Shown here: positions 16,006-41,489 of the stretch, piece after piece
How positions within the stretch are numbered: the first letter of the stretch is position 1
Layout: every line of letters starts with the position of its first letter
Source of the DNA: a virus
Direction: 5' to 3' (one strand)
DNA: 47,916 bases
IMG/VR virus record: IMGVR_UViG_3300021090_000036
Span: 1-47,916 of that record
Program-made: the position numbers and the translations under genes
Notes under the pieces: model-generated
The model's database searches: none
What the model was told of the DNA's origin: nothing
What the model saw: the letters and a program-made list of their open reading frames with translations, nothing else

Positions 16006-16302
16006 ATGGATATAATTGGGCATTTAATTCAAGACACAGAGATCATCGGCATAGGCCCTCTTTATACACAACCGTCTAAAGACCTCGCGTTGCGGTCTCT
16101 CTATAATTCGCAAAGGTTTATTTTCAATGTCCACACAAAACACAATTCAATTGAAATAGCCAGTCATTATTTCATGCCAGGCCCGCCTGATATGAAGAAC
16201 GAAGATGAAAGGAATAAAATGCGGAGATGGGAAGATGACTATTACAAAGCTCGCCAGCTGATCGCTGATCAAATTGGTGAGATTATTCCGGAACAAAAAT
16301 AA
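16006..16302 (+). CDS. Hypothetical replication-region protein
   Basis: This 98-residue soluble protein has a beta-rich middle (RFIFNVHTKHNSIEIASHYF) and a charged C-terminal helix (NKMRRWEDDYYKARQLIADQ). It lies directly upstream of the primase-helicase with a 43-nt gap to the preferred start. The family is not recognised. Confidence 0.6.
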   Translation: MDIIGHLIQDTEIIGIGPLYTQPSKDLALRSLYNSQRFIFNVHTKHNSIEIASHYFMPGPPDMKNEDERNKMRRWEDDYYKARQLIADQIGEIIPEQK

Positions 16303-16345
16303 TCCTCTCTTGAAAACCTTACTAACCACTTTACTAATCCTGACT

Positions 16346-19635: not shown

Positions 19636-20694
19636 ATGAAAAAGAAAACTGCCACAAAGAAAACGTCTCGGACAAAGCAAGAACCTTCAGCGCCTCCAGA
19701 AATAACACCGGTTAAAGGCTTCAAGATTTTCAATCCTGATTTCTCCTGCAACGGGATGCAGTATAAAGAAAACGATAAATTCAAACATACTGGCGCGATT
19801 GAAATATGCAGTCGCGGCCTGCACTTTTGTTTAAAGGCACAGGATTGTTTTAGATATTATTCTTTCGATCCTGCAAACATTGTTTGCGAAGTAGAAGCAA
19901 TTGGTAAAGTAGTCTATCATGAAGAAGATTCAAAAGCTTGCACGGATATATTAGTCGTTGGCCGCAGATTGTCCTGGCACGAAGTTTTAGCTGTAGCGAA
20001 TTCAGGCAGTAATAATACTGGTCATTCGAACAGCGGCAACAGGAACAGCGGCAACAGGAACAGCGGCAACAGGAACAGCGGCAACAGGAACAGCGGCAAC
20101 AGGAACAGCGGCGACAGTAACAGCGGCAACAGGAACAGCGGCGACAGGAACAGCGGCGACAGTAACAGCGGCAACTGGAACAGCGGCAACTGGAACAGCG
20201 GCGACTGGAACAGCGGCAACTGGAACAGCGGCAACTGGAACAGCGGCGACAGGAACAGCGGCGACAGTAACAGCGGCGACAGTAACAGCGGCAACAGGAA
20301 CAGCGGCAACTGGAACAGCGGCAACTGGAACAGCGGCGACAGTAACAGCGGCAACAGGAACAGCGGCGCCTTCTGCACAGACCCAAATCCAGTAATTTTT
20401 TTATTCAATAAACCAACTTCTCTCACTGTCAAAGAATGGGAACGGCATGAGGCTATAAGCATCATGTCCAATTTAGAACCCACAATTTGGGTTCCTGATC
20501 ATGCAATGACAGATAAGGAGAAAGAGGCAAATCCAAAATGGGAAACCACAGAGGGATATCTGAAAACAATTTCCATGAAGGAAGCCTGGGCAAATCTTTG
20601 GCACAACTTAACCTATAAGAAGAAACAGGTTTTCAAGGCCCTTCCAAATTTTGATGCAGCTATTTTCCAAGAAATAACTGGATTGAAATTATGA
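19636..20694 (+). CDS. DUF7666-like protein with a variable pentapeptide (NSGxx) repeat
   Basis: The protein has 352 residues. Residues about 25-125 (VKGFKIFNPDFSCNGMQYKE, then ICSRGLHFC) match the DUF7666 pattern seen in phages. Residues about 132-245 are 22 tandem NSGxx pentapeptides, in which xx takes only the values NR, DR, NW, DW, NS and DS. This resembles the Pentapeptide_2 (NxGxx) coil fold. A C-terminal globular part of about 105 residues follows. The gene lies in the early region, so a structural tail role is unlikely. A protein- or nucleic-acid-mimicking or binding role is possible but unproven. Confidence 0.65.
   Translation: MKKKTATKKTSRTKQEPSAPPEITPVKGFKIFNPDFSCNGMQYKENDKFKHTGAIEICSRGLHFCLKAQDCFRYYSFDPANIVCEVEAIGKVVYHEEDSKACTDILVVGRRLSWHEVLAVANSGSNNTGHSNSGNRNSGNRNSGNRNSGNRNSGNRNSGDSNSGNRNSGDRNSGDSNSGNWNSGNWNSGDWNSGNWNSGNWNSGDRNSGDSNSGDSNSGNRNSGNWNSGNWNSGDSNSGNRNSGAFCTDPNPVIFLFNKPTSLTVKEWERHEAISIMSNLEPTIWVPDHAMTDKEKEANPKWETTEGYLKTISMKEAWANLWHNLTYKKKQVFKALPNFDAAIFQEITGLKL
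20029..20368 (+). repeat. 15-bp tandem repeat array (22+ units) inside a gene
   Basis: The unit is AACAGCGGC followed by AAC or GAC and then AGG, AGT or TGG. The units follow each other with no spacer, and only the last two codons vary, by single-base changes. The array is a coding minisatellite that can gain or lose units in frame. Confidence 0.95.
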
Positions 20695-24579: not shown

Positions 24580-24959
24580 AAATATATATAAATGCTATCC
24601 TGCCTCTTCTTGTTTTATTATCCTGCAAGCTGTCTGTTGGGCCTGATGAAAGTCAAGCACCAACCGAAATAAAACAAAAGTCCCCCTACATCCAAAAACC
24701 AATGGACGGGGAAAAACTTATCGTAAGCACATGCATGGTGACCAATACCGGCTTATATGGTTATTTGGGAAAGGGCTCGGCGTTGTTTGATTATAGTAAC
24801 TGTGTAAGGGGATACAGAATACAAGTTTTCAATAATGATGAACTCGTTTCCACTTCTTACTGCCCACAACATGAACTGCAAAAATATTTGGAGATAATAA
24901 AGTATGAAATGTCTATAAAAGATAGTGTGATCACAGGCAGTAACTTAATAATAAAATGA
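24576..24959 (+). CDS. Predicted lipoprotein
   Basis: The 127-residue protein begins with a signal peptide ending in a lipobox (LPLLVLLSCKL, Cys at about 17). The mature region starts with a flexible PDESQAPTEI stretch. It would be anchored in the inner or outer membrane. It is next to the integrase, a frequent site for lysogenic-conversion genes. It overlaps both neighbours by 4 nt. Confidence 0.65.
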   Translation: MKIYINAILPLLVLLSCKLSVGPDESQAPTEIKQKSPYIQKPMDGEKLIVSTCMVTNTGLYGYLGKGSALFDYSNCVRGYRIQVFNNDELVSTSYCPQHELQKYLEIIKYEMSIKDSVITGSNLIIK

Positions 24960-26545
24960 AACGAGCCATCGGCTATGCACGTATATCTGATGAAGATCAG
25001 TCCACCTGGTCGCTGCCTGGCCAGCTGGAGCTGATCACCGAATACTGCAGCCAAAACAACATTGAACTGGTGGCTACCTTTACAGATGATGGTGAGAGTG
25101 CAAAAAATTTCGATCGGGCAGACTGGAAGCGCTTGGAGGAATTTGTAAAAAAAAATCATGGCCAGGTCGATCAACTGCTGGTAATGGCATGGACCCGTTT
25201 CAGTCGCAATACAAAAGAGGCGCTCACGATGATCGAGCAGCTGGAGAACCGATATCACATTCGTGTAGTAAGCATTCGTGAACCGCTGCACATGCATCCA
25301 CAATCACCATTCTTCCATCATATTCGCACACAAATGATCCAGTATGGAGAGCTGGAATTAAACTTTATTAAGGACCGCACAAAATTTGGGATCCACCAGG
25401 CACAGAAGTCGGGCCGATATCTTAACAGGGCTCCACGCGGATATCTCAATGCAAGAAATGAAAAAGATGAACCCATCATCATCATTGATCAAACCAGGGC
25501 GCCACTGATCCGACATATCTACGATCGATTTTTAATTGGCGACACCATTGACAGCATCCGCAAACAGGTTAAAGAGAGAGGCATGAATGTGAAAGGAAAC
25601 AGTATGGTCCAAAACATACTGCGCAACCCAGTATATATGGGATGCATAAAACAAATTGCTTACTATGACGCACCGGAAGCGATCGTGAAGGGCATACATG
25701 AACCCATCATCGATGAAAACACCTGGTGGAAGGTGCAGGCGCTGTTCGAAAATAAAAAATCAATTCATCGTTCAATCCTCAATGAAGATTTCCCGCTACG
25801 TGGTGTACTAAAATGTTTCTGCAATAGAAATGTTACTGCAGCATTCAGCAAGGGAAGGAACAATCTCGTTGGTTATTACAAATGCAATTCACACACGGCA
25901 ATAAATCTGAATGCAAAAAAACTGCACCTTCAGTTTGATGAAATCCTAAAAGAGATCAGCCTGCCGGCATTCCATATTGACTACCTGCAAAAAAAGATCC
26001 TGGAGAATTTAACCGCAAAGCTTCGCAACAGGGAAAAGGAGATGCAGGAGAAGCAGCAGCAACTTTCGGCGCTGCAAAAAAAGATCGACAGCATGGAAGA
26101 AAAATATATCCTGGGCGACCTGGATAAAGAAGCATACATGAAGTGGAAGGGTCGCTACCATTCAGAAACATCCTTGCTGCAGGCGAGCCTCGCCGATCTG
26201 CGCAGACCGGTGGATCAGATCTGGAGGAATTACAAGTCATCCACCAGTGACCTGGCCAACCTCCAGTTTATTTATAACAAAGGATCTGTACAGCATAAGC
26301 AGAGCTTTGTCAGGATGGTGTTCAACAACCAGCTCTACTACCAGGAAGGCGTTTATCGAACCCCGTGGATCATGCCTGTTTTTGCCAGCAAATCCGCATT
26401 CCTGGCGGAACAGCGGCTGCTCGTAATAGAGCAACCACCCGCCGAAACGACAAATTTGGCCATATGTGCCCCGTCAGGGAGCATAATTGAACCACTCTTC
26501 CAGCTTCTCAACTTGTTTTCAGAGATAAAATCAAAAACAGCTTAG
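24956..26545 (+). CDS. Large serine recombinase (phage integrase)
   Basis: The protein has 529 residues. The N-terminal resolvase domain has IGYARISDEDQS with the nucleophile Ser at 11, and TRFSRNTKE with the active-site arginines at about 80. The recombinase domain begins near 160 (RAPRGYLNA) and a zinc ribbon follows at about 285-325 (LKCFCNRNV, then YYKCNSH). A coiled coil (about 345-385) and a distal tail complete the usual large serine integrase plan. It would integrate phage DNA at a short attB. The attP was not identified, but the repeat-dense stretch directly downstream is a candidate neighbourhood. Confidence 0.88.
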   Translation: MKRAIGYARISDEDQSTWSLPGQLELITEYCSQNNIELVATFTDDGESAKNFDRADWKRLEEFVKKNHGQVDQLLVMAWTRFSRNTKEALTMIEQLENRYHIRVVSIREPLHMHPQSPFFHHIRTQMIQYGELELNFIKDRTKFGIHQAQKSGRYLNRAPRGYLNARNEKDEPIIIIDQTRAPLIRHIYDRFLIGDTIDSIRKQVKERGMNVKGNSMVQNILRNPVYMGCIKQIAYYDAPEAIVKGIHEPIIDENTWWKVQALFENKKSIHRSILNEDFPLRGVLKCFCNRNVTAAFSKGRNNLVGYYKCNSHTAINLNAKKLHLQFDEILKEISLPAFHIDYLQKKILENLTAKLRNREKEMQEKQQQLSALQKKIDSMEEKYILGDLDKEAYMKWKGRYHSETSLLQASLADLRRPVDQIWRNYKSSTSDLANLQFIYNKGSVQHKQSFVRMVFNNQLYYQEGVYRTPWIMPVFASKSAFLAEQRLLVIEQPPAETTNLAICAPSGSIIEPLFQLLNLFSEIKSKTA

Positions 26546-27952: not shown

Positions 27953-28765
27953 ATGTCATCCCAAACTTCCTATTTAGGGATTGTTCCGCTACATCGAAAC
28001 GCAACTTACATAGGAGGTTTCTGCAGGTTCTGGTATATACCTGTTGAAGATTGTTCGGTATTTCCCAGGATAAATTCTGAAAACCAGTTCTTAATTGATG
28101 AGCCATCGCTGGTTCCTGGCAAAGCATGGTTCGGACCGATTGATGTGCCAAAAAATAAACTCGGATTCACGGAGGTGATGAAAAAAATAAAAGCCGGGAT
28201 CTATTATGAACAAAAAATTGAAGGCATTCATATAGGAGATAGTGAGATCAGCAGGGTGAACCTGGAGAATATGGTTTACCACAAATACCTGGTAGTGGCA
28301 AAAGTGAGAGCGGGCGGTTTTTATAATTTATTCGGAAGCATTGACAGCCCGATGTCGTTCAACCCGGAATATAAGAGCGGGATATCGGCAGGGGAAACGG
28401 CAGAAACTATTTTTTCATTTTTCACAGAGCATATCAGTAAAGCCTATGTACTTCCACAATTTACGGCAGATCAGCTGGCGCCAGGCAGTGGTGGAAGCGG
28501 AGGCAGTGAGGATCCTGATTGTATGGTGAATCAAAAAGAAATAATACCATTTGTAAATGAGCCGCTGATAAATGTTCCGTGGACACCTACAAGGCTCGCA
28601 AAATTTGGAACGTTCCCTATTGTTGAAGTGTGGATAGATGATGGAGTGAATCCACCTTTTCTTAGTATGGGAGGAAGTATTGAAGTGGATGCGGCGCCGC
28701 CGGCATTTACAGAATTGAATGTTAACCTGGGAGGAAATCCTTCAGGGTTTATTGTGCTGACATAA
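27953..28765 (+). CDS. Late structural protein, probable tail component
   Basis: This 270-residue protein without a signal peptide is the first gene of late operon 2. It directly precedes the tail fibre gene. A Gly/Ser linker (GSGGSGGSEDPDC, about residues 180-192) splits it into two beta-rich domains, the second ending in a short SIEVDAAPPAFTEL segment. This hints at a tail adaptor onto which the fibre docks. No family is recognised. The start is fixed by the 6-nt spacing to the P2 -7 box. Confidence 0.65.
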   Translation: MSSQTSYLGIVPLHRNATYIGGFCRFWYIPVEDCSVFPRINSENQFLIDEPSLVPGKAWFGPIDVPKNKLGFTEVMKKIKAGIYYEQKIEGIHIGDSEISRVNLENMVYHKYLVVAKVRAGGFYNLFGSIDSPMSFNPEYKSGISAGETAETIFSFFTEHISKAYVLPQFTADQLAPGSGGSGGSEDPDCMVNQKEIIPFVNEPLINVPWTPTRLAKFGTFPIVEVWIDDGVNPPFLSMGGSIEVDAAPPAFTELNVNLGGNPSGFIVLT

Positions 28766-28775
28766 AAACCTGATC

Positions 28776-31700
28776 ATGAAAAAAATATTCTTATCACTGG
28801 TCATTTCATTTTCTGGAATGATCAGCTATTCACAGGTTGTAAAGATTCTTGGAGATAGCACTAAATTCTATCAGACCGGGTCCGGTCACAATGAACTGAT
28901 CATAGAAAATGCTACAAAAGGTAATACAAAGGGCTTCCTGCAGAACAATAATAATGGAAGAACAAAATTTGCATTTGCACTAGATTCTGTTTGGAGAGAA
29001 GGAGATCTGCTGAAGTTTAGAAGGGGCACAACAGTTTTATCTTTTAACCTATTAGTTGATACATCATCAGGAGCTGTTGATACAACCTCTCTTTCAAATA
29101 GAATAAATTTAAAGCTGAATATTTCCGACACATCCAATAAATGGGTGAATAACATTTACAGAACTCCGGGTATCGACAGCATTTATTTTAGGATCGGCGC
29201 TACCGTTTATGCTATTAAAGATTCAACAGGCGGAGGTGATGGTGGATTACAAACTTTACAACAAACAATTGATCTGGAACCAGGCGGAGCATTAACAACA
29301 AAAGGGGATACGGTTATATTAAACACAAATGATTTTACATTTCTCAATACTGGAGGTACGACTAATGGTTTAATTAGGTTAACAAAAAACGATACAACGA
29401 AGACGGTAATTTTACCTGGCCGCATTCAGTTATATTCCACCGCTTTTCCAGATGTTCATTTTTATTCCAGGACAAAAAACGGCAATGGAAATACTGAAAA
29501 AATGGGTTTTGGATATGATCCGGGGGGTATTGATACTTATCTAGATCACACATATATAGATTGTAGGGATTCTGTAGGTTTTTTCACCATTGAATTTGGG
29601 CCTGCTACGGCTCAGTTTTTTAATAACGTGCCACTTTATAAAGGACGAACAAATCTTGGGCTATTGGGTGATGGGAAAGTAATTATATGGGGACCCGGAG
29701 CTACTAATGCAGTAGAACCCCCACAAAAATTTTCCGTATTTGGTTCAATGTGGGTTAAGGATTCAATAGTAGTTCCAGATGGTGTAACGCTTGCTTCTTC
29801 ATCTTCTATTGATAGTGTATGGGTGAAAGATGCTGTAACTGGAGTATTTAAATTAAGAGCGCAATCTGATCTTTCTATTATAGAAACACAGAATTGGGAC
29901 AATGTTTTATCTCAGGGAGGCAGTCAATCGGCTACAAGAAAATGGGATGCTAATAATAATACTTTAGAGTTTGATTCGGTTGCAAATTTCAATACTTACT
30001 CTACCACTAATTCTAGCTTTAGGTCAAGAATAAATCAAAACCAGTTTACGGTTTTAATCGGGTCCACTAAAACAGGTGAGGCAAACAATACTATTCAAGC
30101 AGGAAGCACAGGTAATCAAATATTCAGTCAGGGAACTGGTGTAGCGGGCACATTTCAATATTTCATTAAAACAGATACACTAGGGATCAGTATAAAATCA
30201 AATGCAAGTCTTACATCTGTAGAGCAGATGAAATTATTTATGGACGGCACAAACACAACGTTTACTGATTCAAGAGGAACAACAAAAGGAATTGAATATG
30301 CTGCTAACTATGGGTCAGGATTTACAAGCAGATCATTAATTGATAAAGGATATGCTGATAGTTTACACGCTCTTAGTTCAGGCGATGTTACACTTGCTGC
30401 ATTTGGATCAACTCCTAATGCAAACGGATTAACTCTTTCAGGTCAAGTTTTGAATATGGAGCCAGCAAGTAATTCACAACCGGGCGGAGTATCTACAACA
30501 ACACAAACATTTGCCGGAGCAAAAACTTTTAATGGTTCATTTACTACAGCTAAAGCATTTTATCTGTCAAGTTCTGCAACGGAAACAGTAAATGCTAATA
30601 TAAATGACTATGCACTTTCATCAACTGTATCGTATGTCCATTTAGAACCTTCCAGTGGATCTGTATTTGACTTTACTGGCATGGACCCTGGGGCATCACC
30701 ACAGGGTAGAATTGTTATTTTATTTTGTAATGGTGCCGGTAGAATTGCTATTAAAAATGAAAGCAGTAGTTCAACGGCAGCAAATCGTATTATTTTTAAT
30801 AATGCAATCGGTGATATAATACTACACAGGAAGCAGTCAATAATGCTACGATACGAACTTACAAACCCTGCCGGATTAGGTGGTAGATGGGAGGTAGTAT
30901 CAAGAACACCGGTATTGTTTAATACAACCGATTTTGTTGAGGAATCGTTAGGCGGTGAAATTACCCTTAGTTATTCACAGGTTGCATCATCAGGTGTTAC
31001 AGGTTATTTATCAGGTACAGATTGGGATATATTTAATGGAAAACAGGGTGCAATTACACTGACAACAACAGGCACAAGTGGTGCTGCAACATTAATAAGT
31101 AATACATTAAACATACCTCAATATAGCGGTGGTGGCGGTTATACAAATCTTACTCAATTCGTCGATCAAACAAACTGGATTGTTCCTTATACAAATGGTA
31201 GTGGTGACGTTCAGGAGCTTGCATTAGGTGCAGCGGGAACTTATTTACAATCCAATGGTGCATCGTCTGCACCTACATGGGTAACGCCATCTGGTAGTCC
31301 CCACGTCATCCAGGAAGAAGGCACACCATTAACAGCACGGGCAAACTTAAATTTTATAGGTACTGCTGTAACCGCAACTGATAATAGTGGGGCAAATTCT
31401 TCGGATATAACTTTTGATTCTGATCTGAATACAATTGCCGGATTAATAGCCACAACAGATAATTTTTTAGTTTCAGTTGCTTCTGCCTGGGCTTCTCGTA
31501 CACCGGCGCAGGTGAAGACAACGCTTGGCTTAGTGATCGGTACAGATGTTCAAGCGTATGATGCCGATTTAACAACATACGCAGGCATTACGCCTTCTGC
31601 AAATGTTCAGACGTTATTAGGTTCGGCTGACTACTCAGCATTCAGAACATCATTGGGTTTGGTTATAGGAACTAATGTACAGGCTTTTGATGCCGATTTA

Positions 31701-32543
31701 ACGACTTGGGCTGGTTTGACTCCTACAACAGTCGGCCAAAATCTTGTTACACTAACAAACCCTTCTGCTATTACATTTTTAAGAATCAATGCTGACAACA
31801 CGGTTACCGCAAGATCGGCCGCTAACTTTAAGACAGACCTCAGTTTAACGATTGGAACAGATGTACAAGCCTTCGATGCAGACCTCACAACATGGGCAGG
31901 GATTACACCGGGTACAGGCGTGGGCACATTTTTAGCCACGCCATCCAGTGCAAACTTAGCCTCGGCCGTTACAGACGAAACAGGATCTGGCTCTTTGGTT
32001 TTTGGTACATCCCCGAGAATAACAACCGGTATAAATGACGCTAACGGCAACGAACTCTTTCTATTTACTGCCACAGGATCGGCAGTAAACGAAATTACAA
32101 TAGCCAATGGGGCAACGGGGAACAATGCTACTATAACAGCCAGCGGTGAAACAAATACCGGAATTACAATCACTGGCAAAGGGACAAAGGGGGTTTCTGT
32201 TGGCAATGCTTTACTTGAAAAAGTTGTAACTGTTTCAGATGGTGCGGGTGCGGTGATCGATGCTTCTTTAGGAAATGTATTTACATGGACGGCGGCGGCT
32301 GATCGCACAGCCGGAACAACTACGAATCCAACAGTAGGGCAGAAAATGATAATCTCATTCATAGCTTCTGGCGGTGCAAGGACATTAACATTGCCAACAG
32401 CAACAACAGGTGATTTTGCATTTGGTTCTGATATAACAGGATTGACTCAAACCGCTTCCGGTAAAGGTGATATGATAGGCTGCGTATATGGAATACCGGT
32501 TGCGAATCGCTGGAATATTGTTGCAGTGGCAAAAGGCTATTAA
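28776..32543 (+). CDS. Tail fibre-like protein with N-terminal signal peptide
   Basis: The protein has 1255 residues. After a Sec-type signal (MKKIFLSLVISFSGMISYSQ) the body is rich in Thr, Ser, Gly and Asn, in the style of trimeric fibres. Residues about 905-1050 contain three near repeats of the phage fibre motif LGLVIGTDVQAYDADLTTYA. The C-terminus ends in a typical fibre tip (GIPVANRWNIVAVAKGY). It would recognise the host surface. The signal peptide is unusual for a virion protein and suggests the product, or a fraction of it, is exported. It is co-transcribed with other exported proteins. Confidence 0.75.
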   Translation: MKKIFLSLVISFSGMISYSQVVKILGDSTKFYQTGSGHNELIIENATKGNTKGFLQNNNNGRTKFAFALDSVWREGDLLKFRRGTTVLSFNLLVDTSSGAVDTTSLSNRINLKLNISDTSNKWVNNIYRTPGIDSIYFRIGATVYAIKDSTGGGDGGLQTLQQTIDLEPGGALTTKGDTVILNTNDFTFLNTGGTTNGLIRLTKNDTTKTVILPGRIQLYSTAFPDVHFYSRTKNGNGNTEKMGFGYDPGGIDTYLDHTYIDCRDSVGFFTIEFGPATAQFFNNVPLYKGRTNLGLLGDGKVIIWGPGATNAVEPPQKFSVFGSMWVKDSIVVPDGVTLASSSSIDSVWVKDAVTGVFKLRAQSDLSIIETQNWDNVLSQGGSQSATRKWDANNNTLEFDSVANFNTYSTTNSSFRSRINQNQFTVLIGSTKTGEANNTIQAGSTGNQIFSQGTGVAGTFQYFIKTDTLGISIKSNASLTSVEQMKLFMDGTNTTFTDSRGTTKGIEYAANYGSGFTSRSLIDKGYADSLHALSSGDVTLAAFGSTPNANGLTLSGQVLNMEPASNSQPGGVSTTTQTFAGAKTFNGSFTTAKAFYLSSSATETVNANINDYALSSTVSYVHLEPSSGSVFDFTGMDPGASPQGRIVILFCNGAGRIAIKNESSSSTAANRIIFNNAIGDIILHRKQSIMLRYELTNPAGLGGRWEVVSRTPVLFNTTDFVEESLGGEITLSYSQVASSGVTGYLSGTDWDIFNGKQGAITLTTTGTSGAATLISNTLNIPQYSGGGGYTNLTQFVDQTNWIVPYTNGSGDVQELALGAAGTYLQSNGASSAPTWVTPSGSPHVIQEEGTPLTARANLNFIGTAVTATDNSGANSSDITFDSDLNTIAGLIATTDNFLVSVASAWASRTPAQVKTTLGLVIGTDVQAYDADLTTYAGITPSANVQTLLGSADYSAFRTSLGLVIGTNVQAFDADLTTWAGLTPTTVGQNLVTLTNPSAITFLRINADNTVTARSAANFKTDLSLTIGTDVQAFDADLTTWAGITPGTGVGTFLATPSSANLASAVTDETGSGSLVFGTSPRITTGINDANGNELFLFTATGSAVNEITIANGATGNNATITASGETNTGITITGKGTKGVSVGNALLEKVVTVSDGAGAVIDASLGNVFTWTAAADRTAGTTTNPTVGQKMIISFIASGGARTLTLPTATTGDFAFGSDITGLTQTASGKGDMIGCVYGIPVANRWNIVAVAKGY

Positions 32544-32557
32544 ACAAACATGGAATT

Positions 32558-33397
32558 ATGAAAAAAATATTTTTTATACCGAGTTTCTTAGTTTGCATTT
32601 TATCTAATGCACAGCCTACTTTTTTTGGATTGGCTGTTATTCCATCAGATAACGGATCGAATGCAACCGACCCAACAGTAGCAATAGCAGAACCAGCTTC
32701 AATGTTAGCTGGTGATCTATGTTTTGTATATGCTTCTAAAAGAACAGCTTCAGGTGCAATTTCTGTAAATGCCACAGGTGGACAAACATGGACAGCATTT
32801 ACAACGACGGCCTCAGCTAATGCCACATTATCAGCCAATGTCTTTTGGTGCAGATTTAATGGAACGTGGAGCGCACACCCATCATTTACATACAATGCGA
32901 CAACCAACAATAGTTTTATCATGTTGGTTTTCCGCCCGGTAACCCAATCTAATTCATGGGCAGTTGATGCTGCACAGACAGGAATTTTTGTTGACCGAGC
33001 TGCTGCGGCATCATTCACCATTACAGGATGGACTCCCGGTCATGCAAATAATGTAAATATCGGGGCATGGAACACAGATGATGATAATACATGGGGGACA
33101 TTAACAGGAGATAATTGGACAAAAGGAACGTTGTCTAATCAGTACCGTAATATCGCTGGTAATGATGTCAGCGCCTCATTTGCCTATCAGCTACAGGGAT
33201 CAGCAGCCGCAACAAACAATGTTTCTCAAACAGAAGCAACAAATGGTAATGATGGAGGATTCACGTTTGCCATTTCCTTTTACGAATATACTCCTGCTGC
33301 ACATGACAATAAGCAAGATTTTTTCAAATTATTTGGAGCTAAAACGAAGCAGCCGGATTATATATATGGAACTTCATTTAAATTTTTTGCCCGATGA
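32558..33397 (+). CDS. Exported fibre-region protein
   Basis: The 279-residue protein has a signal peptide (MKKIFFIPSFLVCILSNAQP). The rest is one beta-sandwich-like domain with conserved aromatic strands (GGQTWTAFTTT, then VFWCRFNGTWSAHPSFTY), the kind found in fibre-associated or adhesive proteins. The C-terminus has a short basic helix. Function unknown. It overlaps the T9SS-cargo gene by 4 nt. Confidence 0.6.
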   Translation: MKKIFFIPSFLVCILSNAQPTFFGLAVIPSDNGSNATDPTVAIAEPASMLAGDLCFVYASKRTASGAISVNATGGQTWTAFTTTASANATLSANVFWCRFNGTWSAHPSFTYNATTNNSFIMLVFRPVTQSNSWAVDAAQTGIFVDRAAAASFTITGWTPGHANNVNIGAWNTDDDNTWGTLTGDNWTKGTLSNQYRNIAGNDVSASFAYQLQGSAAATNNVSQTEATNGNDGGFTFAISFYEYTPAAHDNKQDFFKLFGAKTKQPDYIYGTSFKFFAR

Positions 33398-34488
33398 AAA
33401 ACATATTCATCATCCTTTTTTTAATCACCACTTTGCTTTCATCTGGTCAAGGAACAAGCTGCGGCAATGCGATCAATATTCCTTTGAACAACAGTTGCGC
33501 CACCTTTTCTGTTTCATCAACATTAGGAAACGCTGGAGTGGTTTGTAATTATATAGGGACGAATGGAAGGGTCACGTATTTCAAGTTTACTTCGAGTGCA
33601 AATCCAAACTGCATTGAGATAAATTTTTCCGCATCGACAACGATCGAGATATTGGATTATGATCATTGCCCTGTAAATAACAATAACAATATCCCTTCTC
33701 TTGGATTGTGTATTGATAATGGCAATGGCATCTGGGCAACCGACTATTCTAATCTACCACAGCCAAACAAAACTTATTACCTGGAAGTTCACACCGGTAA
33801 TAATTATACGGACACCATAAGGGTTTGCGGGAAATATTACACTCCGCCAAATGATCTATGCACCGGTGCTACGCCGATTGATTCAAATATTATTTCTGAC
33901 AACAATGCATGCCATACACCAAACGGCGGCAACATAATACCACAGCAGTCCTGCGCATTATCATTTGAAAACACTGCATGGTATAGTTACACTGTTGCGC
34001 AGACCGGCATCTCTATCATTAATATCAGTAACATCAACTGTGTGAATAACACGCAGGGTGGTGGCACTGCGGGCGCTGGATTTCAAATTGGATTCTTTGC
34101 CGGCACTTGCGCGAATCCACAATGGTTAAGTTGCCAAACAGATACCGCGGATGGTAACGGATTCGTTCAGTTTACTTCTACATCACTTCCCGCAGGGACG
34201 CATGTTTATGTTTCAATAGATGGAACTGCAGGAGCTAACTGCAGCTATGGTATCAATGCATTTAATGCACTTGGTATTTTATCGCTCAGAAAAGATATCA
34301 TCCACGAACGATCACATATTACTGTGAAGCTATTTGGTGACATCTGGTTGTATAATATGCTTGGTCAAGTTTTATATCAAGGGCGCGGAAGAAATATTGA
34401 TGTGCCCATTGATCACCTGCCTCATGGAGTGTATATGCTCATACTCAATGACGGAAGGTTTAACCGCACCTACAAGTTTGTAAAATGA
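33394..34488 (+). CDS. Secreted surface protein with T9SS type A sorting domain
   Basis: The protein has 364 residues. It has a signal peptide (MKNIFIILFLITTLLSSGQG) and two Cys-rich beta domains of the kind common on Bacteroidota surfaces (first opening TSCGNAINIPLNNSC, second PPNDLCTGATPI). Residues about 300-364 form a T9SS type A C-terminal sorting domain: a DIWLYNMLGQVLYQG strand pair, then DHLPHGVYMLILNDG and a terminal YKFVK. This domain directs cargo through the host type IX machine to the cell surface. A phage-encoded T9SS client is unusual. Surface exclusion or adhesion is inferred. Confidence 0.7.
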   Translation: MKNIFIILFLITTLLSSGQGTSCGNAINIPLNNSCATFSVSSTLGNAGVVCNYIGTNGRVTYFKFTSSANPNCIEINFSASTTIEILDYDHCPVNNNNNIPSLGLCIDNGNGIWATDYSNLPQPNKTYYLEVHTGNNYTDTIRVCGKYYTPPNDLCTGATPIDSNIISDNNACHTPNGGNIIPQQSCALSFENTAWYSYTVAQTGISIINISNINCVNNTQGGGTAGAGFQIGFFAGTCANPQWLSCQTDTADGNGFVQFTSTSLPAGTHVYVSIDGTAGANCSYGINAFNALGILSLRKDIIHERSHITVKLFGDIWLYNMLGQVLYQGRGRNIDVPIDHLPHGVYMLILNDGRFNRTYKFVK

Positions 34489-35354
34489 TCAACAAAGTAC
34501 AATTAATACGGTGGGCACTGGTCTGGCTGCTTATAGGAGCTATTATTGTTCTTATCGGTGAAAGATGCATTGGCCAGGGAGTGATCACCAGAGACCGGAC
34601 AATAGAGGTGGGCGCAAACTTTGGGATGACAGATTACCTTGGAGACATACAAGGCAACAGAGGGACAGGAAAAACATTTTTAAAGGACCTGAACACTGCA
34701 AATTCAAAAATGGTCAAAGGGTTTTTCTTAACCTATTACCCTAAAGCAACCGGACGAATAGGAATGAGAATGTCCATCAACATGATCAGTCTCACTGCAG
34801 CTGATAGCCTGATAGCGGATCATGGTGGTGCGGAATTATTTAGGAAAAGGCGCAACCTGCACTTTAGAACAGATATATATGAAGTGAACGTGGTTGCTGA
34901 ATATTATTTAAGCAAAAGATCTTTCAGGCCTTTCGTAGTGGCCGGCGTTGGGCTGATCTCATTCACTCCAAGAGCTATGTATCAGAATGAGTGGGTTGAT
35001 CTTTCGCAGTATCACACCGAGGGAATAAAGTATAAAACAAAAGCATTTGAATTACCAGTTGGATTTGGTTTCAAGTTCTGCAACGGAAACAAAGTTTTAT
35101 CAGCTGAAGTGTTGCACCGGTTCACCTCTACGGATTACCTGGATGATGTGAGCACGGTCTACCCGGATCCATACATCCTGACAGAAGCAGGAAGAGAATT
35201 GTCATACAGGAACAGCGGGTACAAACCCGGCGATCAGCGAGGGGATGAAAGGGATATGGATTCATTTTTTTCTGTAGCAATAAAGCTGAGTGTATTACTC
35301 AATCAAAACCTAAGGTATAATCAAAAACAAACGTGGAAATGCCCGGTATTATAA
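34485..35354 (+). CDS. DUF6089-type outer-membrane beta-barrel
   Basis: The 289-residue protein has a hydrophobic N-terminus (about residues 10-28) acting as signal. The barrel then shows the family marks: EVGANFGMTDYLGDI, RRNLHFRTDIYEVNVV, and a late STDYLDDVSTVYPDP segment. DUF6089 proteins are Bacteroidota outer-membrane barrels, and from memory the T9SS factor PorG belongs to the same family. It is coupled (4-nt overlap) to the T9SS-cargo gene, which suggests they act together at the surface. Receptor masking is another possibility. Confidence 0.7.
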   Translation: MINKVQLIRWALVWLLIGAIIVLIGERCIGQGVITRDRTIEVGANFGMTDYLGDIQGNRGTGKTFLKDLNTANSKMVKGFFLTYYPKATGRIGMRMSINMISLTAADSLIADHGGAELFRKRRNLHFRTDIYEVNVVAEYYLSKRSFRPFVVAGVGLISFTPRAMYQNEWVDLSQYHTEGIKYKTKAFELPVGFGFKFCNGNKVLSAEVLHRFTSTDYLDDVSTVYPDPYILTEAGRELSYRNSGYKPGDQRGDERDMDSFFSVAIKLSVLLNQNLRYNQKQTWKCPVL

Positions 35355-35401
35355 AAGGGACAGTGGGGTATAGTAACAATCACTCTTTATAAACAACAAC
35401 A

Positions 35402-35689
35402 ATGAAAAAACTAATCTGCCTCATGTTGACAATTTCTGCATTGGTAATTTCTGTCAACGCACAATATAAAAAGAATACCGCTGATTCTACTAAATCGAAT
35501 CAACAAAAAATTCAACAGGCGCCACAGCCAAATTATTTTATCATTGGTCAGATGGACGCATTTAAGCTGCTGGTTATGGCGATCACCTCACCCGATGATG
35601 TGACAGCCAATGAGAGAAAAAGGTTATTGTACTGGTTGAATAATAACCTGCTGGCCTTGCCAACGGATACAACGGGTAATAAAAAATAA
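35402..35689 (+). CDS. Small exported protein
   Basis: The 95-residue protein has a signal peptide (MKKLICLMLTISALVISVNA) cleaved near residue 20, then a disordered Lys/Gln stretch and a helical C-terminus (FKLLVMAITSPDDVTANERK). It belongs to the run of exported late gene products between fibre and lysis genes. The function is unknown. Confidence 0.6.
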   Translation: MKKLICLMLTISALVISVNAQYKKNTADSTKSNQQKIQQAPQPNYFIIGQMDAFKLLVMAITSPDDVTANERKRLLYWLNNNLLALPTDTTGNKK

Positions 35690-35713
35690 TCATAAAACAA
35701 AAGAAAAACCCCC

Positions 35714-35989
35714 ATGCATTTGTTACAAGTACAACTCGGAACGGCTGAGTGGATTTTTATGATACTGGGGCTTGCACTTGTTTCATTCTTTTCGCTTCGT
35801 TTTTATTTAACTGTTGAGGAAATTAGAAAAGATGTCAAGATGCTGCTGATAAAATCAGCGCAGGGAGAAGAAAAAATAAAACAGTTGCAGGAAGATGTTG
35901 ATGATATAAAAAAAACGGTGCATGAACAGGGAAACCTTATACAGAAACATGAATTTCAATTGTCGATAATAAAACTCAAAACACCATGA
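35714..35989 (+). CDS. Membrane-anchored coiled-coil protein
   Basis: The 91-residue protein has one membrane segment (about residues 11-32) and a long coiled coil (RKDVKMLLIKSAQGEEKIKQ, then LQEDVDDIKKTVHEQG). It overlaps the putative holin by 4 nt. This shape fits lysis-region accessory proteins (antiholin or spanin-like), but no specific family is recognised. Confidence 0.6.
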   Translation: MHLLQVQLGTAEWIFMILGLALVSFFSLRFYLTVEEIRKDVKMLLIKSAQGEEKIKQLQEDVDDIKKTVHEQGNLIQKHEFQLSIIKLKTP

Positions 35990-36237
35990 AAGATTTTCTT
36001 ACAGGCCCTGCCGGAGAGCAATCTTCAAAGCGCCTTTTCACCTTGGCATTGATGGTAGTTTACATTATGATCTTATGTGTAAACCTGTTCACCGGTAAAA
36101 AGCTCGATGCAACATTACAGGAGCAACTGTATTACATGATCCTGATTTTTTATGGTGCTATTGCAATTGAGGGATGGAAGAATTTCAGGAACATTAATGT
36201 GAACCCGGTGGATAAACCAAAGGAGCAGCAACCATGA
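35986..36237 (+). CDS. Putative holin
   Basis: The 83-residue protein has two membrane segments (about residues 20-36 and 49-64) and a charged, proline-containing C-terminus (NPVDKPKEQQP). Size, topology and the gene order coiled-coil/holin/spanin candidate/CHAP endolysin support a holin that would permeabilise the inner membrane at lysis. The sequence itself is not diagnostic. Confidence 0.6.
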   Translation: MKDFLTGPAGEQSSKRLFTLALMVVYIMILCVNLFTGKKLDATLQEQLYYMILIFYGAIAIEGWKNFRNINVNPVDKPKEQQP

Positions 36238-36854
36238 TACACCAACCCATTGATAAATGCGCATTAAAAATAATTGCAATTGTCCTGGTATCTGCATTGA
36301 TACTTTCTTTTCTCAGTTGCAAAACTTCAAAACACATCACAACATCGGTTGTAACTGTGGATAGCAGCTATCTAAAAGAAAAAATAGATTCGGTTCATGT
36401 ACTGTTGGAGGAAAAATCAAGGCTGGAATCAACGATAAAGGAGCTGCAATATGCCGGTGTTGTTTTCGACAGCAGCAAATGCCCACCAAGTCAGTTTGTG
36501 ATCGATAAGAATTGCAATGTTGATAGTATTCTACGAATCCTGGATGAATATAAGAACACGGTGAAGATCTACGCAGATGGAACTATAGAAGCCCAGGGCA
36601 AACTGAAATCAGCATATTACACCAAAAACAAGCTAACTCAAACCATTTCAGAATTGACGAACACAATTGATTCGCTGCGCAAAATGAAGCAGACTAAAAG
36701 CATAGCATATAAAACGACCATTGCAACTGTTGATAAGGAAGTGAAGCGAAGTTTCTTTTCACAATGGTGGATGTGGTTGATTGTATTTGTGGCCGGCTGC
36801 TATATTGACCGAAGATCGTTGAGCAAAATCAAATTATTCAAACTCAAAAAATAA
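36234..36854 (+). CDS. Candidate unimolecular spanin
   Basis: The protein has 206 residues. The N-terminal hydrophobic segment ends in a lipobox-like FLSC (Cys 29). The middle is a long coiled-coil region (about residues 45-170, KEKIDSVHVLLEEKSRLEST, then SELTNTIDSLRKMK). A C-terminal membrane helix (WWMWLIVFVAGCY, about 178-192) is followed by basic residues. An outer-membrane lipid anchor plus an inner-membrane helix joined by a periplasmic rod is the plan of a u-spanin, which disrupts the outer membrane. The lipobox is loose, so the N-terminus could be a plain membrane helix. Confidence 0.55.
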   Translation: MIHQPIDKCALKIIAIVLVSALILSFLSCKTSKHITTSVVTVDSSYLKEKIDSVHVLLEEKSRLESTIKELQYAGVVFDSSKCPPSQFVIDKNCNVDSILRILDEYKNTVKIYADGTIEAQGKLKSAYYTKNKLTQTISELTNTIDSLRKMKQTKSIAYKTTIATVDKEVKRSFFSQWWMWLIVFVAGCYIDRRSLSKIKLFKLKK

Positions 36855-36859
36855 AATTT

Positions 36860-37345
36860 ATGTCAAAATCTAAAACTTTCGATCGTGGCTCGTTAATCGT
36901 TGGCCTTGGCTACACAATATTCTTTTTATTCACAATGCTGTTCATAAGAACAAACCACCATTTCCAAATTGGCAATGATGATAAAGTACACCTCTCGCCG
37001 GCAATGGTACAAGCTGCAGTACCAGGCCTGGTGAAGTTTCTCTCTTGGGCAATGCTTGTGGTGATGTGGGTAGTTATTGTTATGGGCTGTAATGGGGTAT
37101 TTGAAACGAAATCAGGCGCTAATGGGAAAGGCCTTGCAATCCTTGGAGCATCTCTTTTACTGTGCCTGGTATTCACACTTGGATGGTATAGTGGAAAGAC
37201 TGATAACAATTATGTGCAAATCACGGAGCAACAAAAAATAGATTGGGTGACAAATGGTGCCATTAAAAAAACCGGTGAGAATAGTTACAAGGATAACACC
37301 GGTGTGCTGAAGGCATTATTTGCTAATAAGGAGATGATCAAGTGA
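36860..37345 (+). CDS. Multi-pass membrane protein in the lysis block
   Basis: The 161-residue protein has three hydrophobic segments (about 13-29, 60-78, 91-107) and a soluble C-terminus. It lies between the spanin candidate and the CHAP endolysin, so a lysis or superinfection role is possible. The family is not recognised. Its stop overlaps the GTG of the next gene (GTGA). Confidence 0.55.
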   Translation: MSKSKTFDRGSLIVGLGYTIFFLFTMLFIRTNHHFQIGNDDKVHLSPAMVQAAVPGLVKFLSWAMLVVMWVVIVMGCNGVFETKSGANGKGLAILGASLLLCLVFTLGWYSGKTDNNYVQITEQQKIDWVTNGAIKKTGENSYKDNTGVLKALFANKEMIK

Positions 37346-37842
37346 GGTTCGTCATCCATAAAAACAATCATAGAGCGTGGCCACCACATTTTGGTTTATG
37401 GCTTAACAAATATGCCATCCGCAAGGCTGTCTGTTTCATCCACGGATGCAATTATGACCTACACAGTGAAGACCAGGAAGACACTAACAAACTTTTCGGA
37501 ATTGGATATTTCTGGAATCATCACACGGATTCCGCAAGGTTTGGATGGCTGTTTAAGGAAGGAAAGATTCAAATCAATGGCTACTTATATGTCAACGGTC
37601 AAAAGATTATAGAGCGGCTATGTTCCGTTCCACTTGGCTTCAAGATGGAATTTCATTTGATCGTTAACCATGCTTTGAAGTATTACACTTTCAAAGTAAA
37701 GAACCCGGCCAACGGTGTGATACTATCGGAAAGGGACTTCTCATTTACGCATGATAAGACGTTGAGTTTTCCGCTGGGCATTTATTTCGGTGGCAATCGC
37801 ACAGCTCCGCAACGAATGACTATTGAAATGAAAAATGTTTAA
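37342..37842 (+). CDS. Hypothetical protein in the lysis block
   Basis: This 166-residue soluble protein starts with GTG. It is rich in His, Trp and aromatic residues, with conserved-looking stretches CNYDLHSEDQEDTNKLFGIG, HTDSARFGW and PLGIYFGGNRTAPQR. It overlaps both neighbours. I have seen similar sequences in Bacteroidota phages but know no function. Confidence 0.6.
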   Translation: MRFVIHKNNHRAWPPHFGLWLNKYAIRKAVCFIHGCNYDLHSEDQEDTNKLFGIGYFWNHHTDSARFGWLFKEGKIQINGYLYVNGQKIIERLCSVPLGFKMEFHLIVNHALKYYTFKVKNPANGVILSERDFSFTHDKTLSFPLGIYFGGNRTAPQRMTIEMKNV

Positions 37843-38311
37843 TATAATCCCTATGACAGTAAGAGAAATTGCATTAGAGACAGCTATCACACAACTCGGC
37901 GTTCATGAAGATGCCGGAAATAGAAACACAGGTCCTCAAGTCAATGCATATTTAGCATCCACGGGCCTGCCACCAGGAAATAGCTGGTGTATGTCATTTT
38001 GTTATTGGTGCTATGACCAGGCAGCGAAAAGGATGGCTGTAAAAAACCCACTCGCAAAAACTGCCGGCGTGCTTGATCAATGGAATAAAAGAAAAACAAC
38101 GAATGGAACAGTTACACCTAATCCCGGCGATATTTTCATTATGGATTTTGGAAAAGGACTTGGCCATACCGGTATCGTTGAAAAAATTGAAGGCATTTGG
38201 ATCTATACGATAGAAGGAAATAGCAATGATGAAGGAAGCAGGGAAGGATATGAGGTATGCCGGCGCCGCAGAGATCCCGCTAAAATGAAAGGCTTTTTAC
38301 ATTTTACATAA
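37835..38311 (+). CDS. CHAP-domain endolysin
   Basis: The protein has 158 residues. The CHAP catalytic Cys (NSWCMSF, Cys 52), His (GLGHTG, His 111) and the acidic/polar partner (TIEGNSN, Glu 127/Asn 129) are in order with typical spacing. It would cut peptidoglycan peptide bonds at lysis after the holin opens. There is no signal peptide, so holin-dependent release is expected. The start is at 37835 (overlapping the upstream stop), or possibly the internal ATG at 37853. It is the last gene of late operon 2 and is followed by a terminator. Confidence 0.8.
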   Translation: MFNIIPMTVREIALETAITQLGVHEDAGNRNTGPQVNAYLASTGLPPGNSWCMSFCYWCYDQAAKRMAVKNPLAKTAGVLDQWNKRKTTNGTVTPNPGDIFIMDFGKGLGHTGIVEKIEGIWIYTIEGNSNDEGSREGYEVCRRRRDPAKMKGFLHFT

Positions 38312-38356: not shown

Positions 38357-38390
38357 GATCCCTGCTATTCCTGGCAGGGGTCATTTTTAT
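38357..38390 (+). terminator. Intrinsic terminator of late operon 2
   Basis: CCCTGC (38360-38365) pairs with GCAGGG (38374-38379), extended by weaker pairs at the base (GAT/GTC), and is followed by ATTTTTATT. It sits 46 nt after the endolysin stop. Confidence 0.8.
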
Positions 38391-38435: not shown

Positions 38436-38472
38436 CTGTCCTTTCACTGATGGTCATCAGAAAATACTTTTG
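38436..38472 (+). promoter_or_regulatory. Late promoter P3 (exact -7 box)
   Basis: CTGTCCTTTCAC (38436-38447), TTTC to box 19 bp, then TACTTTTG (38465-38472), a perfect TAnnTTTG. The start codon at 38519 lies 47 nt downstream, so this one has a normal leader, unlike P1, P2, P4 and P5. The spacer contains the dyad CTGATG-GT-CATCAG. Confidence 0.8.
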
Positions 38473-38518
38473 TTATCACTATAATTCATGTTCACCAATT
38501 GAACTAAAATCTATTAAG

Positions 38519-39094
38519 ATGAAAAAATATTTGTTTGGCCTGGTTGCCCTGTTAAGCTGTATAACATTATTCACTATTCCCGAGCGGTCGGAGGCGCAGA
38601 TCGTTAAGCCGATCAGCATTGCTGCAGCTGATGACACACTGACGAACGCTGACACTGCCCTTGTTGCGCTCACCTTTGATGCAAGTTTTAAAAGTGTTGA
38701 AGTCTGGGTTAAGGAGGTAACCGGCACCACCGGCGGAAAGGTTTACTTCCAGGCAGAATACCCGCATGGCGGCGACTACAGTGATCTTGACTCGCTTACT
38801 CTTTCAGACGTTGCGACGGCGCAATTTGCATTATTTACTGTTCCTAATCCACGACTATATAAATCTTTTCGATTGAAATATATTAAGTCGGGAACCGGCA
38901 CAGCAGAAATTAAAGGTTACTATGTGCGATATACGGGCGGCGCCATTCTATGGGCAAAACCAGATGTTGCAATGCAATTTGATCCTGAAAAGAAAAGCCT
39001 TGCGGCGTTAAACCGGCAGGGTTATAGTGATCGATGGTATGATAAATATATTTTGACCAGGCAGAGATCATTCAAGCAAAAAGTTTCGACGTAA
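38519..39094 (+). CDS. Exported late protein with own promoter
   Basis: The 191-residue protein has a signal peptide (MKKYLFGLVALLSCITLFTI, cleavage near the ERSEAQ end), then a beta-rich domain (VWVKEVTGTTGGKVYFQAEY, then FRLKYIKSGTGTAEI). An upstream frame to 38450 exists but would disrupt the signal. It is a monocistronic unit between P3 and a terminator, so it can be expressed strongly on its own. The family is not recognised. An exported protein just before the prohead protease is unexpected. Confidence 0.65.
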   Translation: MKKYLFGLVALLSCITLFTIPERSEAQIVKPISIAAADDTLTNADTALVALTFDASFKSVEVWVKEVTGTTGGKVYFQAEYPHGGDYSDLDSLTLSDVATAQFALFTVPNPRLYKSFRLKYIKSGTGTAEIKGYYVRYTGGAILWAKPDVAMQFDPEKKSLAALNRQGYSDRWYDKYILTRQRSFKQKVST

Positions 39095-39168: not shown

Positions 39169-40080
39169 ATGAATTTCAGACTGGCATCAAGCATATACAG
39201 CAAGCCCTGGCTAATAGAGGCTCAATCGGCATTGGCATATATACAGATGCTTGAAGATGGCAGGCTGAGCGGATTTAAAAGTTCTTTTTTTAATGATGAT
39301 GATGAAGAAGAGCCGAAAACAATTTTTCAAAAGCTCTTTTCAAGCAACAATGTTTCTGTAGCACCGATTCACCGGGCCGATGCTATTGATCATCCGGGTT
39401 ATGAGGGCAAAACGATCGGGATACTTCCCGTGATAGGTCCTATGATGAAAGAAGATTTTTGCGGATGGTTTGGTACTGCTAATCTGAAGAACGAATTGAA
39501 CAAGATGAGCAATACCAGCAGCATTAAAACCATTGTTGCGCTAATGGATACACCCGGAGGCACTGTCGATGGCACACAAGCTTTTGCAGACGCCTACAAG
39601 GCCAGCGAAAAAGAAAAGATCACTTTGGTGGATGGAATGATGTGCAGCGCTGGTTATTGGTTTGGATCCGGGGGCGATGAGCTGATCATGACTGCCGGCA
39701 CGGATGAAATAGGAAGCATAGGAACGATGATAGCTTTCTATGATAATACAGAAGCGGTAAAGCAGCGCGGTTATGTTCTGAGAGAATTTTACGCTACGGC
39801 ATCTAAAGACAAGAACCTTGATTTTAGAAATGCCAGGCAGGGAGATGGAAAATTGCTGATAGAAAATATTTTGAATCCCACCAATGATGTTTTTCTGAAT
39901 GCGGTGAAAAAGAACAGGGGTGGGAAATTGAACGAGAAAGAAACATTGAGCGGAAAAGTTTTTGTGGGGCAGGATGCAGTGGATGTAGGATTGGCTGACA
40001 GCATATCATCGATAGATGAAGTTTTAAACAGGCTATTTCAAAAACACGATAAAAGTTCAACATTAAAATTCACATTATGA
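39169..40080 (+). CDS. Prohead protease (S49/ClpP-fold)
   Basis: The protein has 303 residues. The serine protease core has MDTPGGTVDG (oxyanion region, about 122-131) and the nucleophile in DGMMCSAGYW (Ser about 160), followed by IGSIGTMIAFYDN. These are S49-family marks. It would cleave scaffold and capsid N-termini during head maturation. It lies upstream of the scaffold-like and capsid genes and overlaps the next gene by 4 nt (ATGA). Confidence 0.85.
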   Translation: MNFRLASSIYSKPWLIEAQSALAYIQMLEDGRLSGFKSSFFNDDDEEEPKTIFQKLFSSNNVSVAPIHRADAIDHPGYEGKTIGILPVIGPMMKEDFCGWFGTANLKNELNKMSNTSSIKTIVALMDTPGGTVDGTQAFADAYKASEKEKITLVDGMMCSAGYWFGSGGDELIMTAGTDEIGSIGTMIAFYDNTEAVKQRGYVLREFYATASKDKNLDFRNARQGDGKLLIENILNPTNDVFLNAVKKNRGGKLNEKETLSGKVFVGQDAVDVGLADSISSIDEVLNRLFQKHDKSSTLKFTL

Positions 40081-40505: not shown

Positions 40506-41489
40506 ATGTCATTAGTGATCACCGATATCGTCACGGACTTTGGGGCCTATTACAAGCCCGGTTCCGACAATCAAAAGAATCTGCGCAAGATGCTCTACAA
40601 GCCATCTGAAACAGCAGCATTCTTTCAGCCAAGGCCAACAGAAGATACAATATGGCGTGGTACGTTTGCTTCATTGACAAGAGTGTTACAGCCTTTTCAA
40701 AAAGCATTTACACCAATTAGTTCATTGACCTTCCAGCCCAACTCCTTTGATCTTTACAAGTTGAAGATCGATGCCAAGGAATATCCTGATGAGCTGGAAC
40801 CTTCATTTGTTGGATTTCTTGCCAACATGGAAGAGCTTGACCGTACAAAATGGCCCTTCGGTCGCTATTGGGTTGAAGAGCATCTGCTTCCTAAGAGCGT
40901 GGAAGATTTTGAAACGCTGGAATGTTTTGCAGGTGTTTATGCAGCTCCCGCACCAGGTGTTGCCGGTGCAGCTGGCACATCAATGAACGGCTTGCGCAAA
41001 GTGATCCGCACTTATAACACTGCCGGCAGAACAAACCTGGGCGATGGCGCCATTGTTACCGGCGCCGCTGCAGGAGATGATGCAGATTTTTGCACGCAGG
41101 TGGAAGAATTTGTGGCAGATATTCCTTCTCTTTTCCGCAGCAAGATCGATCATGTGTTCATGAGTAAAGCCCTGGAATTAAAATATAAGAGAGGCAAGAG
41201 AAAAAAATACGCTGCTTATGTAAACTTCATTGAATCACCAGGCCTTTACACCATCGAAGATTTCCCGAATGTGAGTGTGAAAGGTTTGGAGAGCCATGAA
41301 GGAAGCGGACTTTATTGGGCCTCACCCTCCATCAACAGGATCAATCCTAAAAAGAAAGCAGCATTGAAAAACACAATGGTGCTCAAAGAATTCAGCGCCC
41401 GTGAAGTGAGTGCCTATACTGATTGGTGGGAGTGTTTGAATTATGAAGTTCCTGAGTTCATTTTCCATAATGACCAGGACCTGGCCTAG
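40506..41489 (+). CDS. Major capsid protein (probable HK97 fold)
   Basis: The protein has 327 residues and follows protease and scaffold. The sequence has an extended N-arm, a Phe/Pro-rich E-loop-like part (FQPRPTEDTIWRGTFASLTR), and a C-terminal P-domain/A-domain pattern with the late VLKEFSAREVSAYTDWWECL stretch. Length and position fit the main capsid subunit. The fold assignment is inferred from context more than from motifs. Confidence 0.75.
   Translation: MSLVITDIVTDFGAYYKPGSDNQKNLRKMLYKPSETAAFFQPRPTEDTIWRGTFASLTRVLQPFQKAFTPISSLTFQPNSFDLYKLKIDAKEYPDELEPSFVGFLANMEELDRTKWPFGRYWVEEHLLPKSVEDFETLECFAGVYAAPAPGVAGAAGTSMNGLRKVIRTYNTAGRTNLGDGAIVTGAAAGDDADFCTQVEEFVADIPSLFRSKIDHVFMSKALELKYKRGKRKKYAAYVNFIESPGLYTIEDFPNVSVKGLESHEGSGLYWASPSINRINPKKKAALKNTMVLKEFSAREVSAYTDWWECLNYEVPEFIFHNDQDLA

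Follow-up and report, generated by a model that had tools for sequence, protein, structure and literature searches.

A phage record with adjacent genes for a putative T9SS type A cargo and a PorG-family barrel

The phage and its fibre-to-endolysin run

The window, i.e. the whole stretch of DNA analysed here, is the complete IMG/VR virus record IMGVR_UViG_3300021090_000036 (47,916 bp, classed linear). Judging from its genes it is a temperate tailed phage, since it encodes a terminase, a portal-type protein, a serine integrase, a primase, a protease, a capsid protein and a tape measure (Table 1). Its large terminase (TerL) is 21-28% identical to those of Flavobacterium, Porphyromonas, Polaribacter and 'Microcystis' phages, and these relatives point to a Bacteroidota host, whose possession of a T9SS is our assumption. 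The last of these phages, Mea-Yong924-1 (MZ447863), has a TerL, portal, adaptor and S49 protease resembling those of the window and of other Bacteroidota phages; its recorded cyanobacterial host may be wrong, and the phage could instead infect a Bacteroidota bacterium associated with Microcystis. At 19636-20694 the window also encodes a protein whose long repeat is of the NSGN/NSGD/NSGNW pentapeptide type; this protein matches phrog_14105 (E 1.4e-108), a family to which no function has been assigned.

Table 1. Positions of the genes and other features in the window
Feature	Position	Strand	Basis or remarks
Portal-type protein	462-1859		Homologous to portal-position genes in related phages
Portal neighbour	1859-2845		Homologous to adaptor-position genes in related phages
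Large terminase	10002-11663		phrog_2
Primase	16274-18991		
Serine integrase	24956-26545		phrog_95, E 9.7e-76
Conserved protein 5' of fibre, first of the co-directional run	27953..28765	+	Homologues in related phages
Tail-fibre protein	28776..32543	+	phrog_24210 (tail fiber) E 2.9e-9; phage tail-protein matches; Q-rule Sec signal MKKIFLSLVISFSGMISYS followed by Q
Predicted exported protein, 279 aa, no assigned family	32558..33397	+	Q-rule Sec signal
Putative T9SS type A cargo, 364 aa, 14 Cys after signal peptide	33394..34488	+	
Predicted Sec signal peptide of cargo, 18 aa, cleavage between SSG and Q	33394..33447	+	Q-rule script
Putative T9SS type A C-terminal sorting domain (CTD), residues 314-364	34333..34485	+	TIGR04183; independent CTD profile
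Predicted PorG-family outer-membrane barrel, 289 aa	34485..35354	+	NF052316; BLASTP to Prevotella PorG
Predicted signal peptide of PorG-like protein, 30 aa, cleavage between CIG and Q	34485..34574	+	Q-rule script
TDYLDDVS motif in barrel	35130..35153	+	Aligned with SDGLDGVK of Prevotella PorG
Tail Cys286 codon, candidate link to host GldK/PorK	35340..35342	+	Tail NQNLRYNQKQTWKCPVL
Predicted exported protein, 95 aa	35402..35689	+	Q-rule Sec signal
Two small membrane proteins, putatively holin-like	35714..36237 (35714-35989, 35986-36237)	+	Hydrophobic segments; position before endolysin
Putative spanin-like protein	36234..36854	+	N-terminal lipobox-like segment LSFLSC; C-terminal TM
CHAP-domain endolysin	37835..38311	+	PF05257 E 3.4e-15
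Terminator-like hairpin after endolysin, closing the run	38357..38382	+	11 pairs, 6 GC, T tail
S49 protease	39169-40080		
Capsid protein	40506-41489		Homologous to capsid-position genes in related phages
Tape measure	44386-47814		

All genes from 27953 to 38311 point in the same direction, and neighbours either overlap slightly or lie no more than about 50 bp apart. The conserved protein that opens this run is followed by the fibre, the 279-aa exported protein, the cargo, the barrel, the 95-aa exported protein, the two holin-like proteins, the spanin-like protein, two further genes and the endolysin, so that the cargo/barrel pair sits between tail-fibre and lysis genes. The product of the opening gene has homologues 59%, 45% and 45% identical in the related phage loci L013, L016 and L017, and partial ones in L111 and L112. 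For the 279-aa protein profile searches gave no family match and phage records no relative. Both open reading frames of the pair lie where the original prediction had put them and overlap by 4 nt (ATGA). This overlap is not peculiar to them, as it recurs at 33394/33397, 35986/35989 and 36234/36237. Since 4-nt overlaps are common in the run, this one is no proof, by itself, of a functional coupling between cargo and barrel. GC3 is about 0.27 in the fibre and 279-aa protein genes (28776-33397) and about 0.38-0.47 in the cargo, the barrel and most of the core phage genes tested, a contrast which suggests that the fibre segment has a different origin.

The hairpin after the endolysin is the strongest terminator-like site in a scan of the 26-40 kb region, and a consensus scan for the TAnnTTTG element, which provides weak evidence, found none on the + strand from 16.8 to 38.3 kb. 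Because the genes are packed from fibre to endolysin, with no promoter seen for the pair and the strongest terminator after the endolysin, expression late in infection together with the fibre and lysis genes seems likelier than expression as lysogenic conversion. The conversion proposed in the original prediction is thus disfavoured, and the late role that it offered as an alternative fits better with the position of the genes. A stand-alone lysogenic-conversion moron was rejected on the same consensus scans, which found neither a promoter of its own nor a stronger terminator-like hairpin before the end of the run. We also rejected bacterial contamination of the contig: phage genes flank the pair on both sides in one packed run.

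Sec-exported proteins of Bacteroidota typically expose a Q after cleavage (the Q-rule; PMC10653852). We called such signals with a rule-based script, rather than with SignalP, and took shuffled N-termini as the null. The script found them in 6/50 genes of the window against a per-gene null of 1.35%, and five of the six are in consecutive genes, starting at 28776, 32558, 33394, 34485 and 35402 (span 28776-35689). The fibre itself is among them. Q-rule-like Sec signals are found on the fibres of the window (28776-32543) and of several relatives (L013:1115-3190, L016:5569-7587, L017:3632-4264, L110:11049-13067), and are lacking in the equivalent proteins of L111 and L112. An exported fibre protein is a puzzle, given that virions are put together in the cytoplasm, and these fibre-like proteins may be secreted rather than parts of the virion. 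Outside the run, a signal-peptide protein (38450-39094; Met at about 38519, cleavage between SEA and Q) lies directly 5' of the S49 protease gene of the window, as it does in several relatives (e.g. L014:9431-9952 and L015:9429-9980), and these three proteins have no detectable similarity in sequence to each other.

The putative cargo and the neighbouring barrel

The original prediction endowed the cargo with a signal peptide and a T9SS type A sorting domain, and both are upheld. Its Sec signal, MKNIFIILFLITTLLSSG followed by Q, obeys the Q-rule. TIGR04183, the profile on which the prediction had staked this assignment, scores 24.8 bits, above its curated cut-off of 23 (E 1.6e-5), over residues that reach exactly the C-terminus; in a six-frame search of the record the cargo scores 29.4 bits (E 3.2e-8). 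An independent profile, constructed from 11 CTDs that other phages and plasmids carry, puts the cargo at the top of the 506 open reading frames of the window (E 2.3e-6; 0.26 for the runner-up). Given that no related phage record (0/50) reaches the TIGR04183 cut-off, the match is beyond chance. Yet, it is marginal, just over the cut-off, and truncated at its start: it begins at position 20 of the profile, lacking the N-terminal "PNP" part, and the Pfam profile PF18962 gives 15.8, under its cut-off of 27. All 14 Cys of the protein are downstream of the signal peptide, which suits a disulfide-bonded extracellular protein. Outside the CTD, profile searches found no convincing family match, a PDB sequence search was uninformative and BLASTP detected no internal duplication in the N-terminal region. 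A single-sequence AlphaFold2 model, with no deep alignment behind it, has a mean pLDDT of 39, too low to be informative.

The next gene had been predicted to encode a DUF6089 barrel of the family including PorG. The second part of this claim stands: the NCBIfam profile T9SS_PorG (NF052316) matches the protein with 65.5 bits (E 5.5e-18) over profile positions 2-199 of 209, and BLASTP aligns it with the PorG of Prevotella (22% identity, E 2e-7). The first part does not, as PF19573 (DUF6089; gathering cut-off 23.2) fails to match it even at E 10. The score for NF052316 is about half of the equivalog cut-off of 130 and does not reach it, whereas the Prevotella reference scores 206.5 bits with this profile and 48.9 with PF19573. 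By these profiles the barrel is a homologue within the PorG superfamily, under the equivalog level. Members of the superfamily should fold as barrels of 8 strands; the single-sequence AlphaFold2 model of the phage protein, which had no alignment behind it, has a mean pLDDT of 35, too low to be informative on this fold.

In host bacteria, the periplasmic C-tail of PorG is disulfide-bonded by its Cys to GldK/PorK, the moving track that powers both the T9SS and gliding (PMC12635249). In F. johnsoniae these tail Cys are required for type A export. The tail Cys of PorG bond Cys343 of GldK, and their loss blocks both type A export and gliding (PMC12635249). The PorG of P. gingivalis has a single tail Cys (PMC12635249). 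The C-tail of the phage barrel, 17 residues ending in NQNLRYNQKQTWKCPVL, also has a single one, Cys286, and the mature protein contains another, Cys199. Prevotella PorG ends in AAKCRTCHNDDE and has CRTC in its tail. Tail Cys do not appear to be universal in the superfamily, since the PorG-like protein of Persicobacter (L106, 48 bits) lacks one, and one Cys in a 17-residue tail could be there by chance.

Related phages and the variable slot

An alignment of the S49 protease retrieved 80 related loci; the integrase, used as bait, retrieved nothing. The closest relative, L013 (63% identity in the portal and 51% in the capsid), has in its fibre-lysis slot three other signal-peptide proteins, non-homologous to those of the window, one of them with a beta-helix match. 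We found nothing comparable in the slot of L016, L017 or L110. Among 50 related records none has a PorG match or a TIGR04183 match above the cut-off. Since the slot holds other exported proteins or nothing in relatives, and neither CTD nor PorG was found in the 50 records, this comparison of gene content makes the pair an accessory element inserted into a variable slot.

Wider searches were also negative. The phage barrel and Prevotella PorG, used as queries, found no PorG relative in 50,697 phage records. No relative of cargo or barrel turned up in IMG/VR, GTDB genomes, phage or plasmid records, where IMG/VR and GTDB were searched with short exact peptide patterns, which makes for a weak absence; pattern scans of IMG/VR for the canonical CTD motif and for TDYxDDVS gave chance matches only. 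These searches yielded no second phage carrying a cargo with a PorG homologue, hence a joint function has no support from conservation. The survey of phage CTDs called for by the original prediction was empty among the 50 related records but gave a clear case in an isolated phage, Flavobacterium phage vB_FspM_immuto (MW353177), whose gp15 matches with 44.8 bits. In a 735-kb phage (LR756501, L012:9752-11092) a T9SS CTD (42 bits) sits mid-protein, ahead of a Fib_succ_major domain. Three human-gut fragments with CTD matches (L009-L011) were not counted as phage precedents, the records being short and unverified.

Possible roles and known systems

The reading we favour, with a probability of about 0.45, is that the pair is an accessory late surface-remodelling cassette of a temperate tailed phage whose Bacteroidota host is assumed to bear a T9SS. 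For both proteins, the signal peptides strongly indicate transport across the inner membrane by the Sec route. The Cys-rich cargo, given its type A CTD, would be exported by the SprA/PorV translocon of the host and be displayed or released, and the PorG-like protein, given its family, would fold as an outer-membrane barrel. One might speculate that the Cys in the tail of the barrel links it to the GldK/PorK track of the host, and that the barrel either assists the export of the cargo or competes with host PorG. The host surface would then be altered late in infection and, probably, the re-adsorption of progeny or superinfection reduced, which is the function we infer. In F. columnare, phage resistance arises with mutations in gldK, gldM, gldN, sprA and sprE (PMC9233685), hence an altered T9SS output plausibly alters susceptibility to phages. 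Besides these mutations, the favoured reading draws on the CTD, the five Q-rule genes, the 14 Cys, the PorG match, the tail Cys, the late position and the variable slot. It is at odds with a CTD that is marginal, without its N-terminal part and under the Pfam cut-off, with a barrel below the equivalog level and without a DUF6089 match, with a single tail Cys that is possibly fortuitous and that Persicobacter lacks, and with the lack of a second phage with the pair. The most specific form of interaction, in which the PorG homologue of the phage is disulfide-bonded to the GldK/PorK track and redirects or jams the T9SS (and gliding) while the cargo of the phage is surfaced late, we deem rather unlikely.

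Outer-membrane barrels (Lom) are encoded close to the tail-fibre genes of lambdoid phages. The barrel of the window might similarly be a generic conversion or adhesion barrel, acquired beside the fibre and playing no role in the T9SS, with an unrelated secreted protein next to it. The score under the PorG equivalog cut-off would suit this explanation, but the family matched is specifically PorG, over nearly its full length, and there are the tail Cys and a T9SS cargo next door; we regard it as slightly more doubtful than the bond to the track. A shade less probable still is a decoy, or dominant-negative, T9SS component that occupies the Cys of GldK/PorK by its tail Cys and slows type A export and gliding, in such a way that phage receptors are lost and superinfection is excluded, the cargo being a separate accessory. 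Cys286 and Cys199 of the mature barrel, the block of type A export and gliding upon loss of the PorG-GldK bond (PMC12635249) and the phage resistance of T9SS/gliding mutants of F. columnare (PMC9233685) speak for it. Yet, GldK reportedly far outnumbers PorG and SprF in molar terms (PMC12635249), which may render simple competition weak, a jammed T9SS would halt the cargo of the phage too, and the barrel gene has a late position.

Alternatively, the barrel could serve this particular cargo as its own partner or anchor in the outer membrane, just as SprF does for SprB. The genes are adjacent and overlapping, the adhesin-barrel pair of SprB and the adjacent sprF provides a precedent (PMC9143113), and in immuto the CTD cargo gp15 is followed by gp18, which has a signal peptide and whose C-terminus is barrel-like. 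Still, partners of the SprF/PorP type are 14-stranded FadL-family barrels serving type B CTDs, whereas here a type A CTD, a type whose cargoes use PorV, comes with a barrel of the PorG family; moreover, the barrel-like protein of immuto has no family match. We thus rank this pairing below the decoy. The least probable explanation is that host surface genes were captured as passengers of a variable slot without any selected function. The pair was indeed found in one phage only, and the fibre-lysis slot is variable. But passengers would hardly be expected as two intact, overlapping open reading frames in a packed run, with the signals of the cargo intact at both ends, and the GC and GC3 of the pair resemble those of the core phage genes, giving no sign of a very recent arrival.

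PorG was recently shown to be a covalent link between the T9SS and the moving track, and a phage with a homologue of it would offer a defined and testable case in which a virus tunes the secretion motor of a bacterium. The pair would also bear on the frequent T9SS and gliding mutations among phage-resistant Flavobacterium.

The export of a cargo by a phage, which the original prediction held to be little described, already has published precedents. In Cryophage (Bellas et al. 2020), type A sorting domains are found on phage proteins in variable genes, and secretion by the host T9SS was proposed with a role in competition or superinfection exclusion (PMC7468147). Like the window, it encodes type A cargo; unlike in the window, this consists of an endoglucanase, a GH39 and a PA14 protein, and the parts of the paper dealing with them mention no T9SS machine component alongside (PMC7468147). 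In cluster 2 of crAss-like phages, CTD-bearing genes are also near structural genes of Bacteroidota phages, but the context is that of BACON domains, and the account of these genes mentions no PorG relative (PMC6949934). We found no experimental follow-up of the phage-encoded T9SS cargo known from a few phages, nor, among open-licence papers, any report of a phage-encoded PorG relative. Immuto has a run of signal-peptide proteins (gp13-gp18) which includes, like the window, a CTD cargo and a barrel-like protein. This run differs by lying beside the replication genes of a 160-kb phage, by having a cohesin cargo and by a gp18 without PorG or Pfam match. The annotation of this cluster (L008:9342-14683), which comprises a C-type lectin, the CTD-bearing cohesin protein and the barrel-like protein, is silent on the T9SS.

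Among cellular systems, host PorG (NF052316; Fjoh_1692 in F. johnsoniae, PG0189 in P. gingivalis) shares with the phage barrel a near full-length match, a signal peptide and a C-tail Cys. The phage protein differs in reaching half of the equivalog cut-off and in being phage-borne, within a fibre-lysis run, and it has, compared with Prevotella PorG, one Cys in a longer tail. SprB-SprF also brings together the genes of a surface cargo and of an outer-membrane barrel, but with a type B CTD and a 14-stranded barrel of the FadL type. Hence, the cargo of the window is, by itself, of a kind already published, whereas its pairing with a component of the T9SS appears to be new.
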